Source of the DNA: a bacterium
GTDB taxonomy: Bacteria > Electryoneota > RPQS01
Reading direction: 5' to 3'
Assembly (NCBI GenBank): GCA_013360195.1
Contig: JABWCQ010000013.1
Coordinates: 1 to 64,000 of the forward strand
DNA: 64,000 nucleotides
The notes under the pieces are model-generated. The model saw only the letters and a list, made by a program, of their open reading frames with translations. It had not been told where the DNA came from and ran no database searches. A program made the translations under genes and the position numbers. Below are positions 1,973-22,534 of the stretch, one piece after another. Every line of letters starts with the position of its first letter. Positions within the stretch are counted from its first letter, which is position 1.

Positions 1973-3067
1973 CTACGCGCTTTGCAGACAAATCTCCCGC
2001 AGCGCGTTTGCCAAAATCTCATTCTGTTCCGGTGTGCCGATAGTGATTCGCACACAATGCGGCAGCATGAACCCGCGCAGAGGACGAACGATGACACCGC
2101 GTTTCTCGAGTTCCTCTGAAAACTTCAGCGCTTGCGCTTCCGTCTCAAACGGCAGCATGAAGAAGTTCGCCGCCGATGGAATATACTTCAAGCCGAGCTC
2201 GTCGTAAATCTTCGGCATCAGCTCGCGTCCTTTGCGATTCGTGTCCTGAGTTAATTTCAGAAACTCGGTGTCCTCCAGCGCGCCCGCTCCGGCGGCTTGC
2301 GCCACAATGGAGGGTTCGAACGGCAGCTTGACCTTGAGCACGTTGCGGCACAAGTCTTCATGGCAAAAGCCGTAGCCGATGCGCACCGCCGCCAATCCGT
2401 ACGCCTTCGAGAATGTCCGCAGCGTAATCACGTTGTCCAGCCGGTAGGTCATCGAGTCGGGGTAGTCCGGAAAATCCTCGGCGAACTCACAGTACGCTTC
2501 GTCGAGTATAACCAGCGTCTTATCGGGCACCTTCGTCATAAAGTGCTCGAATTCCTGCCTTGTAAAATACGTGCCGGTCGGATTATTCGGATTTGCAAGA
2601 TAAATGATTTTCGTTTTCGGCGTAATCTCCTTGGCCATCGCCTCGAGGTCAAACGCGAAATTCTTCAGCGGAACAGTAATCATTTTCACACCGCGCGACC
2701 ATGCCGCGACGTAAATGCCGATGAATGTGCCCTCCGCAGTCAGCACCTCTTCGTCGTCGCACATGAACGTGCGAACGATGTTAGCCAGAATGGATTCCGA
2801 CCCGTTTCCGACAACCACATTGTCCAGCTTCACTTCATAAAGTTTGGCCAGCCTGTTCCGCAGCATCAACCCGCCATCGGGATAAATGTTGATGTCGTGA
2901 TAGGAGTCCTTCGAAGCGGCAATTCCTTTCGGCGAAGACCCGATGGGATTCTCATTCGATGCAAGCTTGATAATGTCCTTGAGCCCATACTGCTCACGAA
3001 TCTGCTCGGGGGATTTCCCCGGCTTGTATGGAATTAATGATTCAATGTAAGGTGGTACAAGTGTCAT
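1973..3067 (-). CDS. hisC: histidinol-phosphate aminotransferase
   Basis: 364 residues, the usual length for HisC, a cytoplasmic PLP-dependent enzyme that transaminates imidazole-acetol phosphate with glutamate in histidine synthesis. Visible family marks: 'KLASNENPIGSSPKG' near residue 35, 'NPNNPTGTYF' in the cofactor domain, 'ILDEAYCEFA', and the PLP lysine in 'TFSKAYGLAAVRIGYG'. The C-terminus 'RPLRGFMLPHCVRITIGTPEQNE' is typical. No other his gene is visible, so it is an orphan here. HisC-family enzymes can also act on aromatic amino acids, which cannot be excluded. The leader between it and the upstream gene (3068-3207) is filled by the composite repeat, and no clear Shine-Dalgarno is seen before ATG 3067. 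Confidence 0.93.
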   Translation of the reverse strand: MTLVPPYIESLIPYKPGKSPEQIREQYGLKDIIKLASNENPIGSSPKGIAASKDSYHDINIYPDGGLMLRNRLAKLYEVKLDNVVVGNGSESILANIVRTFMCDDEEVLTAEGTFIGIYVAAWSRGVKMITVPLKNFAFDLEAMAKEITPKTKIIYLANPNNPTGTYFTRQEFEHFMTKVPDKTLVILDEAYCEFAEDFPDYPDSMTYRLDNVITLRTFSKAYGLAAVRIGYGFCHEDLCRNVLKVKLPFEPSIVAQAAGAGALEDTEFLKLTQDTNRKGRELMPKIYDELGLKYIPSAANFFMLPFETEAQALKFSEELEKRGVIVRPLRGFMLPHCVRITIGTPEQNEILANALREICLQSA

Positions 3068-3077
3068 ATTAGTATGA

Positions 3078-3129
3078 TTTCCCCCCAGTCTTCTAGGGGG
3101 ATTAAGAGGGGTAAAATGTTCAGCAACTC
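3078..3129 (+). repeat. dispersed repeat module A, copy 1
   Basis: A 52-base element containing the hairpin TCCCCC-N10-GGGGGA and then GGGGTAAAATGTT. A second copy lies inverted at 21313-21365, with the same order of blocks and only scattered differences. It sits immediately upstream of the hisC start. Confidence 0.75.
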
Positions 3130-3140
3130 GACAACTCTAC

Positions 3141-3180
3141 TCGCCGAGCGGGGATTAAGCGAAGCGGTTCCCCGCCGGAA
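3141..3180 (-). repeat. dispersed hairpin repeat module B, copy 1
   Basis: A 40-base imperfect palindrome. Read on the minus strand its stem is GGCGGGGA / TCCCCGC with an outer CCG/CGG extension past one bulged T and a loop of about 14 bases. It is nearly identical to 20967-21006 and 21210-21249, and is structurally equivalent to 21157-21196. Confidence 0.85.
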
Positions 3181-3207: not shown

Positions 3208-4989
3208 CTATTTCAACAAAACCATCTTCCGCGCCATCGCCAAGCTCCCCACCGACAACCGCGCAAAATAAACTCCGCTCGCAAACTTCTCACCGTCAAA
3301 CTCCACTGAATGCGCACCCGCACTCATTCTGCCATCAACAAGCCTCGCAACTTCCTTTCCCAACACATCAAACACAGCTAACTTAACAACCCCAGCTTTC
3401 GCCAAATCAAACTGCAAAGTCGTAGCAGGATTAAACGGATTGGGGTAATTGGGATAGAGCATGAACGTGGAAGGACCAGCCACATTTCGGTCATTAACTG
3501 TGGTTTCCGTCGCTCGAAACTCCCACTCTTCTTGCAACGGAAATGCTGCTATGTCTGAAGTCGGAGTTCGCATGTACACAAGGTCATTCTCGGTTGGAAG
3601 ACCTTCCTGCCAGAAGTACGTTCCGGCTGAACGGTCGTGCATATACAGAGCGTGAATCCCACCTTCATTCACATACTTGGCGATGGTAATATCGCGCTCA
3701 CTTGGATGATTCGCGATTTCGGGCATGTTCGTCTCACCCGGCGTGTTACTCACGTTGGTGGGCACAGCCCAACTTCGCCCATTGTCACGTGACTTACTGC
3801 AGTAATACTCCCCCATTGCCCAACCACTCACGCTGTAAGCATGACGGTCAAATTGCTGAAAAGCGCAATATAGAAAACCTGTCGTCGTATCAATTGCAAG
3901 ACTCGGTTTCTGGCACATCAAATCGGCGCTACCAATAGACATGATATCAGGCGGTTCCCAGGCTTGACCGATCAAGCTGAATTGCTCTGTCTCGTCACAC
4001 CAATGCCAAATTGACGACAGAATTGTCCGGACAGGATTCGCTTCGCCGGTTTCGTCGAAATAGTAATAACCACTTGCGGAGAACGAGATATGCACGTTAT
4101 CATCCTCATCGAAGAGGATTGAAAGATCGCGGTAAGGTCGAAACGTATCGCCATTGCAAATCTGCGGAGAAAGCGTGCAAGTCGTATCAATCGGCGGCAA
4201 ATTCGTTACCGGAGTAATCTCACCCCAATTCAGGCCGCCGTCTTCGGATACTTGCATCACAATATTTTCTGGGTCATGACTACCCGGAGGATCAACAATC
4301 CAGGCAATTGCGACTCTCTCGGATATCCGCGAGCAGGCAATGTCCTCGGAATTGTAAACGAAGTCCCTCGAATCGAAAACCTGGTATGGAGAATCCCAAT
4401 CAACGAAGAGCCCCATTCCCTCTTCGTAAAAGGGTGTGCCGCCCACGTGAAACATCTGTACTGAGTCTCCATCTGCTGTCCCGACAAGATGCAATCTACC
4501 GTGCGAATCAACATCCGACCTTCCGTACATTGTCAACTCCGTTTCAGGAAAATAGGGAGGAGTGGACTGCTGAAAGGCTCCTGTGCAGGGCAGAAACTCG
4601 ATTAAGCCTTGAAGGTAAGTGCTGGTTGTTCCATTAACGTGATAAACAGCAATCGCATGTCCAAACGGCCCGGAATTAACCGTTGGAAAACCAGATCTCC
4701 ACTCACCCCCCATCGCCGCACCTGTATCAAAGACCAGATTTCCAGCTTCAGTATTCCAACAATTGTAATAAGCTTCTCGAAAAGTCTGTGTTGAACCGCT
4801 TTGAGTCCAGACAAAATGTACTTGTCCGCCAATTGCAACCGCAATCAGCCTTCCGGTTGATCCGCTCGTCTGCGCATCCCACCACGTGCTCCCCACATAC
4901 ATCCACACCGAATTGGGCGTACCGCCCTCTTGGGCAAAGACGGCCGAAACCAACCCCAAAACTAAACTGAACAAAACCACGCGCTTCAC
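3208..4989 (-). CDS. secreted sialidase/BNR-like protein with C-terminal sorting domain
   Basis: Translation starts at GTG 4989: GGAGG at 4996-5000 is correctly spaced, and a signal peptide (KRVVLFSLVLGLVSAVFA, then QEGG) begins there. The mature protein of about 575 residues has propeller-like, Asp-box-like stretches ('AWIVDPPGSHDPENI', 'VSEDGGLNWGEITPVTN', 'SRDNGRSWAVPTNVSNTPGE') resembling exo-alpha-sialidase/BNR families, but no sialidase catalytic set was identified. The last ~88 residues ('YPNYPNPFNPATT', 'VFDVLGKEVARLVDG', 'GVYFARL', 'KMVLLK') are the FlgD-like/type IX-type sorting domain of FCB bacteria. It is a paralogue of the adjacent 5171-7102 gene, with matching promoter and leader. 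Function unknown beyond a secreted or surface role. Confidence 0.85.
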   Translation of the reverse strand: MKRVVLFSLVLGLVSAVFAQEGGTPNSVWMYVGSTWWDAQTSGSTGRLIAVAIGGQVHFVWTQSGSTQTFREAYYNCWNTEAGNLVFDTGAAMGGEWRSGFPTVNSGPFGHAIAVYHVNGTTSTYLQGLIEFLPCTGAFQQSTPPYFPETELTMYGRSDVDSHGRLHLVGTADGDSVQMFHVGGTPFYEEGMGLFVDWDSPYQVFDSRDFVYNSEDIACSRISERVAIAWIVDPPGSHDPENIVMQVSEDGGLNWGEITPVTNLPPIDTTCTLSPQICNGDTFRPYRDLSILFDEDDNVHISFSASGYYYFDETGEANPVRTILSSIWHWCDETEQFSLIGQAWEPPDIMSIGSADLMCQKPSLAIDTTTGFLYCAFQQFDRHAYSVSGWAMGEYYCSKSRDNGRSWAVPTNVSNTPGETNMPEIANHPSERDITIAKYVNEGGIHALYMHDRSAGTYFWQEGLPTENDLVYMRTPTSDIAAFPLQEEWEFRATETTVNDRNVAGPSTFMLYPNYPNPFNPATTLQFDLAKAGVVKLAVFDVLGKEVARLVDGRMSAGAHSVEFDGEKFASGVYFARLSVGSLAMARKMVLLK

Positions 4990-5031
4990 AGGACACCTCC
5001 GGTGAAAAATGGACGCGGGACCCATGCTCTG

Positions 5032-19210: not shown

Positions 19211-20764
19211 ATGCAGACGGAATTACCAGCAGCGCCATTTTCGCACAGGCTTTGCGACTGTACGTCGGCTTCGCCGCGCGGTCCGGTGGTTACTCGCGAC
19301 GAGGCAGACGAGCGCAGGTTTCTGGAGCGGCTTCGAGCCGGAGTTTACGGCAGCGGCGCGGAAATCGAGACACCTTATGGCCGCAAGCCGCTCAGGTATT
19401 TTGATTTCATCGCATCGGGCAGATTTCACCGCGATGTGGAAGAAGAGATATCCGAGCGTGTGCTGCCGTACATGGCCAATACACACACAGAGAGTTCATT
19501 CACCGGGCGGCACATGACACGGCTGTTCGAGAACGCGTTTCAGAGAATTGCCAAGTACATGAACGCGAGCGAAGACGATGTGGTGATCCCGGTGGGTTCG
19601 GGTTCGACGGGTACAATCAACCGGCTGATTCACGTGATGGGGCTCAGGCTTCCGGATCAATTGGACGAGAAGTATCATTTGCGGGAACGCATACCGGCGG
19701 ACGAGCGGCCGGTGGTATTCCGCTCGATGATGGAGCATCATTCGAATGATATCTGCTGGCGCGAGACAATCGCGGAAACGGTTTATGTCGAGCTGAACGA
19801 GCACGGCTGTATTTGTCCGAATGACCTGGCAGAGAAGATGCGAGCCTACAAGCATCGCAGAGTCAAGTACGGGACCTTCAGCGCGGCTTCAAACGTGACG
19901 GGGATTCTGAACGATTGTCATGCGCTGGCGCGCGTTCTGCACGAGAACGGCGCTTACGCCTTTTTCGATTATGCGGCGGCGGGACCGTATGTGGACATAG
20001 ATATGCATCCGGAAAACGATCCGCTGGGATATTATGACGCGGTCTTCTTGTCGGTACACAAGTTTCTGGGCGGTCCGAGAACTCCGGGAGTTCTGGTGGC
20101 GAACAAGCATCTGTTTACCAACCGAGTTCCGGCGGAGCCGGGCGGGGGCACGGTGCTGTATACGTCACCGTGGGATCATCGCTATCTGTCGTCCATTGCG
20201 CACCGCGAGACGGGCGGCACACCGCCGATTGTGCAGAGCATTCAAGCAGGGCTGGCGTTCGATATGAAAGCAGCCATCGGCAGTGCACGCATCGAGCGGA
20301 TTGAGCACGACTACATGACGCGCGCGCTCAAAGAGTGGATCCGGAATGACAAGATTCTCATTCTGGGACTCACGGACGCGAAACGACTGGGAGTGTTCAG
20401 TGTCATTTTCAAAGACCTCCATCACAATTTGGCGGCTGTGTTATTCAATGATTTGTTCGGCATTCAAGTACGCGGCGGCTGTATGTGCGCGGGGCCGTAC
20501 GGACATCTGCTTTTGCACATCGAGCAATCGCACTCAGCAGAAATCCGGGAACGGCTTGATTCAGGACACATCGGCGAAAAGCCGGGCTGGGTGCGCATCT
20601 CGCTCTCCCCTACTGTCAGCGAAGACGAATTCCAAGCCCTGCTCGAAGCGGTGGATCACATCAGCAAACACGGCAAAAAATACGAATCGCAGTACAAACT
20701 TGTGGATGATACGGGGGAATGGATGTGCTCTGATTGTGGCCAGCATGTCGAGCTGGACAATTGA
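19211..20764 (+). CDS. class V PLP aminotransferase, cysteine-desulfurase-like
   Basis: 517 residues from ATG 19211, with AAGGAA seven bases before it. It belongs to the fold type I class V group: 'VGSGSTGTINRLIHVMG' (phosphate-binding loop), 'GAYAFFDYAAAGPYVDIDMHP' (cofactor Asp), 'YDAVFLSVHKFLGGPRTPGVLV' (PLP lysine in SxHKFxGG), and 'VRGGCMCAGPYGHLLLHI', whose cysteines sit where desulfurases have the catalytic Cys. An ordinary cysteine desulfurase is about 400 residues; this has an N-terminal extension and a short C-terminal tail 'WMCSDCGQHVE' with one CxxC, possibly metal-binding. It may be a sulfurtransferase-type enzyme, but the substrate is not clear. Translated downstream of the M14 peptidase from the same message. 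Confidence 0.8.
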   Translation: MQTELPAAPFSHRLCDCTSASPRGPVVTRDEADERRFLERLRAGVYGSGAEIETPYGRKPLRYFDFIASGRFHRDVEEEISERVLPYMANTHTESSFTGRHMTRLFENAFQRIAKYMNASEDDVVIPVGSGSTGTINRLIHVMGLRLPDQLDEKYHLRERIPADERPVVFRSMMEHHSNDICWRETIAETVYVELNEHGCICPNDLAEKMRAYKHRRVKYGTFSAASNVTGILNDCHALARVLHENGAYAFFDYAAAGPYVDIDMHPENDPLGYYDAVFLSVHKFLGGPRTPGVLVANKHLFTNRVPAEPGGGTVLYTSPWDHRYLSSIAHRETGGTPPIVQSIQAGLAFDMKAAIGSARIERIEHDYMTRALKEWIRNDKILILGLTDAKRLGVFSVIFKDLHHNLAAVLFNDLFGIQVRGGCMCAGPYGHLLLHIEQSHSAEIRERLDSGHIGEKPGWVRISLSPTVSEDEFQALLEAVDHISKHGKKYESQYKLVDDTGEWMCSDCGQHVELDN

Positions 20765-20966
20765 CACCGGCGCGAGGGCTCCGAGGCGGTGCCCAGATCG
20801 AACGTGCGTAATATAAGCTTGATTGGAACGTTTGTCAAACTGTTTTGTGTTATTTATAAAATTATTACGTAACCATTTGTTCAATATTTGATTGTGATGG
20901 CAACTGCGGAATTTTTTATTGGAGTTAGGTGGGTCAGTTGAGATTTTGGAGAGGCATTGAGGGGGT

Positions 20967-21006
20967 TTCCGGCGGGGAACCGCTTCGCTTAATCCCCGCT
21001 CGGCGG
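20967..21006 (+). repeat. dispersed hairpin repeat module B, copy 2
   Basis: Forty bases starting TTCCGGCGGGGA and ending TCCCCGCTCGGCGG. Stem positions 6-12 pair with 27-33, and outer positions 3-5 pair with 35-37 past a bulged T. Same unit as 3141-3180 in the opposite orientation. Confidence 0.85.
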
Positions 21007-21156
21007 AGTTTTGGACACGCTTGGGAGTGTTACCTTTGTTGACAAGCTCCTTCACGTTGTTCAGGATGACAAAGTGTTTGGGATTGGTGGTTTGAGCTTG
21101 AAATGGTTTGTTGGCTTGAGTAGATCCTGACAGAGGATGACAGAAGGGAGAACGGA

Positions 21157-21196
21157 TTCCGGCCGGGTTGCGGAGGACCTTAACCCGGCTCGGCGG
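21157..21196 (+). repeat. module B, divergent copy 4 with compensatory changes
   Basis: Forty bases starting TTCCGGCCGGGTT and ending AACCCGGCTCGGCGG. The loop is quite different, but the stem folds in the same register. Pair 8/31 is C-G instead of G-C and pair 12/27 is T-A instead of A-T, and an extra T13-A26 pair forms. Confidence 0.7.
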
Positions 21197-21209
21197 GAAT
21201 TGAGGGGGT

Positions 21210-21249
21210 TTCCGTCGGGGAACCGCTTCGCTTAATCCCCGCTCGGCGG
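21210..21249 (+). repeat. dispersed hairpin repeat module B, copy 3
   Basis: Almost identical to copy 2, with T instead of G at position 6. It lies 13 bases after copy 4, so the two are nearly in tandem. Confidence 0.85.
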
Positions 21250-21312
21250 AAGCAGACGGGTCCTTCATTCCACCGAGCCTACATTCAGGATGACGACGCG
21301 CTGTAGATCGTG

Positions 21313-21365
21313 GAGTTGTTTGACATTTTACCCCCTTTTTATCCCCCGAGAGGACTGGGGGGAAA
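21313..21365 (-). repeat. dispersed repeat module A, copy 2
   Basis: Inverted relative to copy 1 at 3078-3129. Read on the minus strand it gives TTTCCCCCCAGTCCTCT, then CGGGGGA, then GGGGGTAAAATGTC. On that strand module A precedes module B, as at 3 kb. Confidence 0.75.
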
Positions 21366-21412
21366 ACTGAGATGACAATTCTGTGACACTCTGGCTTGTG
21401 GATTTTGTATAC

Positions 21413-21443
21413 TATGTTTGGATTATGGATTAAATAGTCCAAA
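21413..21443 (+). promoter_or_regulatory. candidate -10 element and inverted repeat before the polyferredoxin
   Basis: TATGTTTG (21413-21420) matches TAnnTTTG, but no TTG stands 20 bases before it. It overlaps an inverted repeat TTTGGATTA (21417-21425) / TAGTCCAAA (21435-21443), nine pairs with one T-G. That is the position expected for an operator in a promoter lacking a -35 box. Confidence 0.4.
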
Positions 21444-21469
21444 ATATGTCAGAATATGGGTATTAGGTT

Positions 21470-22534
21470 ATGGATATTGTAGAGTTAGCACGAGCTCCGA
21501 AGCGGCCGGTGCCGGGGACGGCGAAGGGGAGGATGTACAAAGGGTTCTGGACGACGAGGCATATCGTCCAGCTCGGCTTTGCCGGACTAAACGTTTTACT
21601 TGGGATACAGTTCTGGTTTTTTGTGCGTGCATTGCAGGAAGGCGGAACGGGGCCGCTTCCTCCCCGCCCTGCCGGAGTAGAGGGGTGGCTGCCGATTTCG
21701 GGGCTCATGGGAGTAATAGATTGGTTTGCCCGCGGGGAACTCAATCTAATTCATCCGGCCTCGGCGATATTGACGCTGTGTTTCATCGCGATTGCTTTTC
21801 TGATGCGGAAGTCATTCTGCTCGTGGCTGTGCCCGGTGGGAACCATCAGCGAAGGCCTGGCCATGCTGGGGCGCAAGTTGTTCGGCAAGACATGGCTGCT
21901 GCCGCGCTGGCTGGACTATGCTCTAATGAGTATCAAATACATCCTGCTGGGACTGTTTCTGTATGCATTCTTCATGATGGGCGCGGCGGGTATTGCGGCC
22001 TTCATGAGCAGTCCGTACAATCAACTGGCGGATGTGAAGATGCTGCTGTTCTTCGTCGAGATCGGAATTGTGGGAGTATCGGTCATCGCCATCCTGATGA
22101 TCGGGAGTGTGTTCGTGGAAGGGTTCTGGTGCAGGTATCTTTGTCCCTACGGAGCGATGTTGGGGCTCGTATCGTGGGCGAGCCCGATGAAGATACGGCG
22201 CAATGTTGAAACGTGCATTGATTGCGACCGCTGCACGAAAGCGTGTCCGTCGCGGCTGCCGGTGGCGACAAAGCTCAGAATCATTTCACCGGAATGCACG
22301 GGCTGCCTGAAGTGCGAGTCCGTTTGTCCCATCAAGGATTGTATCACCATGGCACCGACGCCGAAGACGAAGGTGAACCCGCGTCAGTTCGCCTTGACGG
22401 TCTTGGGGATCTGGCTGGCATTTGTGATTGTGGCCAAGGCTGCCGGAGTATGGGATACGACCATCTCGGACGAGGAGTACCGATATCACTATGAGCGGCG
22501 GGATCTGCCGAGTTACGGGCACCCGGGGCAATAA
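21470..22534 (+). CDS. membrane polyferredoxin (NapH/NosR-type 4Fe-4S protein)
   Basis: 354 residues with five or six membrane segments. It has two CxxxCP motifs at membrane edges ('FCSWLCPVGTISEG', 'WCRYLCPYGAMLG') and two classic 4Fe-4S motifs near the end ('CIDCDRCTKACPSRLP', 'CTGCLKCESVCPIKDC'). A final membrane span ('FALTVLGIWLAFVIVAKAAG') follows. Proteins of this build pass electrons from quinol or other carriers to a periplasmic reductase or a maturation step. No such reductase is encoded beside it, so the partner is unknown. CcoG is related, but it has a different N-terminus and lies far from the cco operon here. Spacing to hppA (285 bases with a promoter) indicates a separate transcript. 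Confidence 0.85.
   Translation: MDIVELARAPKRPVPGTAKGRMYKGFWTTRHIVQLGFAGLNVLLGIQFWFFVRALQEGGTGPLPPRPAGVEGWLPISGLMGVIDWFARGELNLIHPASAILTLCFIAIAFLMRKSFCSWLCPVGTISEGLAMLGRKLFGKTWLLPRWLDYALMSIKYILLGLFLYAFFMMGAAGIAAFMSSPYNQLADVKMLLFFVEIGIVGVSVIAILMIGSVFVEGFWCRYLCPYGAMLGLVSWASPMKIRRNVETCIDCDRCTKACPSRLPVATKLRIISPECTGCLKCESVCPIKDCITMAPTPKTKVNPRQFALTVLGIWLAFVIVAKAAGVWDTTISDEEYRYHYERRDLPSYGHPGQ

Follow-up and report, generated by a model that had tools for sequence, protein, structure and literature searches.

REP-like hairpins with a constant foot and freely varying paired stems, probably acted on by RAYT enzymes, in a bacterium of the Electryoneota

The published definition of REP elements includes a 5′ GT[AG]G tetranucleotide at the foot of the hairpin (PMC3686654, in the part of the text drawn on here). 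TnpA-REP cleaves single-stranded REP hairpins, and Q95 of the E. coli enzyme (4er8) is a residue contacting GTAG (both from sections of PMC8266576). How the REP-associated tyrosine transposases (RAYTs) choose their targets and where new REP families come from are open questions in the field. RAYT flanks without GTAG were known before in subclass 2.6 and class 3, where they accompany other protein signatures (PMC6006769, in the portion consulted), and a REP-like motif has been reported in Caldithrix abyssi (Calditrichaeota; PMC5317091, excerpt). Neither a study of RAYT in KSB1 nor an account of such a hairpin/RAYT system in this lineage was found in the literature covered, which excluded subscription journals.

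The window, that is, the whole stretch of 64,000 nucleotides analysed here, contains four 40-base hairpin copies, all at the positions reported by the first-pass annotation. One lies on the + strand at 3141..3180 (strand reading CGCCGAGC...GCCGGAAT), 28 nt beyond the end of the gene 3208-5025(-), and three lie on the - strand at 20967..21006, 21157..21196 and 21210..21249. The copies at 3141, 20967 and 21210 are of the GGGG-type short form; in the last one G has become T at base 6 without compensation, a change absent from the first-pass annotation. Searching the window with the 40-mer, with up to three mismatches allowed, returned three copies (0, 1 and 2 mismatches) and none in 100 shuffles. 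The gene ending beside the 3141 hairpin encodes a secretion-system C-terminal sorting domain (Por_Secre_tail). Counted along the 40-mer, the copy at 21157 indeed carries the two compensatory changes ascribed to it, in register: C-G at pair 8/31, where the others have G-C, and T-A for A-T at pair 12/27. It had been described as a divergent copy; it is a separate sequence, but not a lone mutant, since it belongs to a sister subfamily (CGGG type), the one flanking the RAYT gene G000:C2:314975-315457 elsewhere in the same genome (G000). When folded as DNA, six hairpins of the family gave a CCG/CGG pairing, a one-base A bulge, a stem of 7-8 bp and a variable loop, with z values of -2.3 to -4.6. Both window sites have, next to their hairpins, a further inverted repeat pair, CCCCCCAGTCTTCTAGGGGG...TAAAATGTT (3078-3132 and 21310-21365), and short stretches like TTCAGGATGAC occur around them (21040-21080 and 21280-21300 in the window, and also at other loci).

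In the stretches examined, 31 copies, not including the altered one at 21210, were placed relative to ORFs, and 28 of these are outside ATG-started ORFs of at least 150 aa. Two copies of the window, 20968-21003 and 21158-21193, fall within an antisense ORF at 20561-21442(-), of 293 aa from TTG or 235 aa from ATG. Because this ORF has no Pfam match and is positioned between two + strand genes, we take it as spurious. A coding repeat was rejected from the location of the 28 copies and the lack of a Pfam match in the antisense ORF.

The genome assembly from which the window is taken comprises 3.23 Mb in 46 contigs. The frame GCCGAGC...GCCGGAA matched 34 times in it (reversed control, 2), and from their pairing and flanks about 30 of these 34 appear to be true copies. 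The short form of the GGGG subfamily measures 38 nt with the frame, while the long form, which accounts for 8 of the 34 matches, measures 56 nt and encloses an inner 18-nt hairpin. The CGGG subfamily has about seven copies, six exact matches, with that of the window at 21157 among the subfamily, and one altered copy beside the RAYT gene. The ends of the element (CGCCGAGC...GCCGGAATC) are constant and the stems differ and are mostly paired, in related uncultured bacteria as well. The borders are sharp, conservation fading out a few bases beyond the frame, and in the invariant foot CG precedes the CCG arm and AAT(C) follows the CGG arm; the constancy of the bulged A is fixed by the search pattern itself. 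Copies also form a direct array at C6:137358-137631 with a spacing of 53-55 nt. The copies of this array and the three clustered copies of the window are all oriented the same way. The suggested likeness to REP/BIME or RAYT-mobilised elements is upheld for REP/RAYT, by the RAYT gene of the same genome flanked by the divergent subfamily, but a BIME/REPIN layout is not evident in the window, where the clustered copies share one orientation. In the related genome G005, several contigs have copies that face opposite ways at a distance of about 90-140 nt. The inner 18-nt hairpin of the long form (GTGCTTGNNAAGCAC) also occurs inside another palindrome, TAGCGCCCACGA...TCGTGGGC, near the RAYT gene of contig C22 (G000:C22:21512-21560; L035 about 3013-3060); at other places this palindrome lacks the GTGCTTGNNAAGCAC hairpin.

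A loose frame, searched on both strands, matched as follows (reversed control in brackets): G000 31 (1), G001 6 (3), G002 3 (1), G003 181 (2), G004 18 (2), G005 83 (1), G006 13 (2), G007 27 (2), G008 62 (1), G009 79 (6) and G010 138 (0). With a stricter frame, copies were found in 9 of the 11 genomes of the family and in both genomes of the sister family in the order, and in none of 26 other genomes of the phylum. The same-genus genome G002 has neither a RAYT match nor a strict-frame copy; copies are present in G004, G006 and G007, in which no RAYT flanked by the frame was found. On some contigs of G010 and G005, copies enlarged by a long insert in their interior (ACTAGCCAACACCCTCC..., ACTAGCCAGCACCGTCC...) look like a palindrome within a palindrome.

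The pattern used to search for covariation leaves the stem free, so that whatever pairing the stems show was not imposed by the search. Among the matches listed, which for the larger genomes were a part of the total, 223 distinct sequences were compared, after exclusion of the matches in G001 and G002, which judging from the controls were mostly chance, and removal of repeats by hand for some genomes. The first stem pair was Watson-Crick in 174 of these 223, a count that still includes chance pattern matches, against 68.5 after shuffling (sd 6.6, maximum of 2000 shuffles 92); the pairs were C-G in 66, G-C in 58, A-T in 47 and T-A in 3. Smaller excesses over shuffled values were obtained in the same set at pairs 2 (185 vs 174.3), 3 (170 vs 144.9) and 4 (177 vs 159.4). 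Of the 27 distinct matches in the own genome, 22 had a Watson-Crick first pair (18 G-C, 4 C-G; shuffled 15.5). Where two sequences of the same genome and the same length differed at two stem sites and no more, these sites faced each other in 20 of the 39 cases; independence of the sites would give about 1 in 9. Sequences with fewer than three of the four outer pairs had been left out, a choice that works in favour of paired stems but not of facing changes, and the sequence pairs are not mutually independent. Intermediates with a G-T or unpaired first position occur. Between close copies, one-sided differences prevailed (45 of 45 comparisons with one difference, 99 of 119 with two, 207 of 322 with three or four); two-sided ones did so only between distant copies.

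An absence of compensatory excess among the copies, which would have spoken against the first-pass annotation, was looked for and not found; the excess lies between variants that spread, not between decaying sister copies. The annotation had concluded that a folded structure is selected or was the basis of spread. The first half of this alternative fares less well than the second: compensation across the bacterial family separates subfamilies or founder variants, whereas close copies differ mostly by single changes, against site-by-site selection afterwards. Because near-identical copies differ mostly by single uncompensated changes, pairing would have been kept in the copies that spread and not in every copy later. 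As read from these comparisons, the data favour structure as the basis of spread over later selection at each site.

Three Y1_Tnp genes were found in the genome, all three above the NCBIfam cut-off for REP-associated tyrosine transposases. Among them is the enzyme gene to be looked for elsewhere, C2:314975-315457, flanked by the divergent CGGG subfamily: two copies lie upstream of it in the same orientation, and a third lies downstream, inverted. Its product scores 87.4 bits against a cut-off of 80 and carries the HUH (PDHLH) and Y..NP motifs with one catalytic Tyr. The best match of the RAYT family was E. coli TnpA-REP 4er8, both in a profile search (E 2.2e-10) and by predicted fold (E 5e-9); a single-sequence search of solved structures gave no match, whereas the profile search did. 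The two other RAYT genes of the genome, C9:19832-20041 and C22:20868-21140, are each bracketed by a distinct palindrome family of their own. In the own assembly, where contigs are interrupted at such repeats (C2 start, C11 end, C36 start), no RAYT gene flanked by GGGG-type copies was found. We infer that the single RAYT flanked by CGGG-type copies also serves the GGGG-type copies.

RAYT relatives (34 matches) are present in 10 of the 11 genomes of the same taxonomic family, and the closest ones with named records come from MAGs labelled candidate division KSB1, Calditrichaeota or 'bacterium'. For 26 of the 28 loci analysed among these 34, the two flanks have at least 12 identical nt in common, the median for flanks of different loci being at most 8 for nearly all. 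The CCGAGC frame, with different stems, was read by eye on the flanks of 7 of the 28 loci, in six genomes (the own C2 locus and six in relatives). On a poorly resolved tree of the 28 loci the frame label was not clustered (6 changes against a shuffled mean of 6.4, with 249 of 500 shuffles as low), and one enzyme per frame by descent is therefore unsupported. At the position aligned with Q95 of 4er8, 15 of the 21 RAYTs of the present clade have R (K in 1, Q in 2, N in 2, L in 1), and the seven RAYTs of the other clade have Q (4), E (2) or T (1). By our reading of their ends, the palindromes of several RAYTs of that other clade seem to have a CTAG-like end. The shift to R at the Q95 position fits an altered recognition code, short of proof.

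We think it probable, with good confidence, that the hairpins are REP-like, non-autonomous mobile elements acted on by RAYT, the foot being recognised and the stem free as long as it pairs. The sequences, their copy numbers, the invariant ends, the covarying stems and the RAYT genes flanked by the same hairpins are direct observations. RAYT, an HUH/Y1 single-strand nuclease, would act on the folded single strand of the hairpin and would read the invariant foot, made up of CGCCG, an A bulging from one arm and the CRGATT/AATC end, and not the stem sequence. It would cut near the foot and help to copy the hairpin into new intergenic places; strand-specific single-strand cleavage and movement of the hairpins are presumed here by analogy with the known biochemistry of TnpA-REP. 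The stem could then change freely while paired, and variants with G-C, C-G or A-T at the first pair, then further inward, would found new subfamilies.

The same covariation might instead arise if the hairpins were RNA elements with a cellular role at gene ends, in termination or in protection of mRNA 3′ ends, their structure being selected at each site. The intergenic location of 28 of 31 copies, the closeness of several to the end of an ORF (within 60 nt) and the strong folds would agree with such a role. It is nevertheless improbable: uncompensated changes are seen in close copies, RAYT genes are bracketed by the hairpins, no terminator-like site was detected in 20765-21470, the copies whose flanks were inspected have no T-run after the frame, and the window holds no Rfam family apart from one tRNA. 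An intrinsic terminator (GC hairpin then T-run) and a known RNA family were rejected on the last three of these observations. A secondary RNA role of this kind may still exist beside mobility. Covariation can also be produced by mutation alone, since template switching, a mutation known in quasi-palindromes in general, copies one arm of the quasi-palindrome onto the other without selection for structure or spread. The intermediates with a G-T or unpaired first position suit this process, but it leaves unexplained the fixed ends and the bulged A beside a variable stem, as well as the RAYT flanks, and we hold it to be an unlikely account of the whole. Template switching may have been the origin of new stems before their spread.

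Under mobilisation by RAYT, it is conceivable, although we would put it at slightly below an even chance, that in the RAYT lineage of this bacterial family the code changed from a GTAG head to a fixed foot (bulged base plus CGCCG and CRGATT ends), the stem needing only to pair. If so, one enzyme could keep several stem-variant families going in a genome, and the whole stem could be swapped without loss of mobility. Hundreds of natural variants, from nine genomes, set the constant foot apart from the free stem, and recognition of foot versus stem is directly testable in a RAYT lineage without the GTAG head treated as defining in the cited work.

The comparison with described systems places the hairpins as follows. 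Like the CGTC-tagged REPs, they are short palindromes with a fixed non-GTAG end; a dedicated transposase is reported absent for those REPs (PMC3733652, in the section used), whereas here RAYTs are flanked by the repeats. The CGTC-tagged type was rejected on this ground and on a consensus without a CGTC end. In subclass 2.6 (Bacteroidetes) and class 3, RAYT-like genes are likewise flanked by non-GTAG 'atypical secondary structures' with copies elsewhere in the genome. Judging from the motifs given in the accessible portion of PMC6006769, subclass 2.6 has NH[LIV]H and WQ, and class 3 has NHVH, a CnGA foot and EQ at the end of its Y motif, while the present RAYTs have a DHLH-type motif, mostly WR, and Y..NP; scored on NH[LIV]H and WQ, they did not fit subclass 2.6. 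The E. coli REP/TnpA-REP system (group 2 / subclass 2.2) resembles ours in its palindrome-flanked RAYT with DHLH and Y.H.NP motifs and in its long intergenic hairpin with a stem irregularity and many copies (PMC8266576 and PMC6006769, in the parts drawn on). It differs in that the irregularity is a mid-stem mismatch in E. coli and a one-base bulge near the foot here, that the ends are here fixed as CGCCG/CRGATT without a GTAG head, and that R stands at the GTAG-contacting Q95 position in 15 of the 21 RAYTs of the present clade. The search for a GT[AG]G head, up to 7 nt from the foot, gave 0 of 31 own copies on either strand and 1 of 26 copies from other genomes. Other features of canonical REPs are present, namely a palindrome of variable base composition, many copies (34 matches in the own genome and up to 181 in a relative) with 28 of 31 outside ORFs, and a RAYT gene flanked by inverted copies (at C2 and at six loci in relatives), as are the HUH motif, single catalytic Tyr and family-model match of RAYT/TnpA-REP. 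Since the GT[AG]G head is absent and the other tested features are present, we class the hairpins as a variant of the REP/RAYT kind and not as a strict GTAG-REP family.
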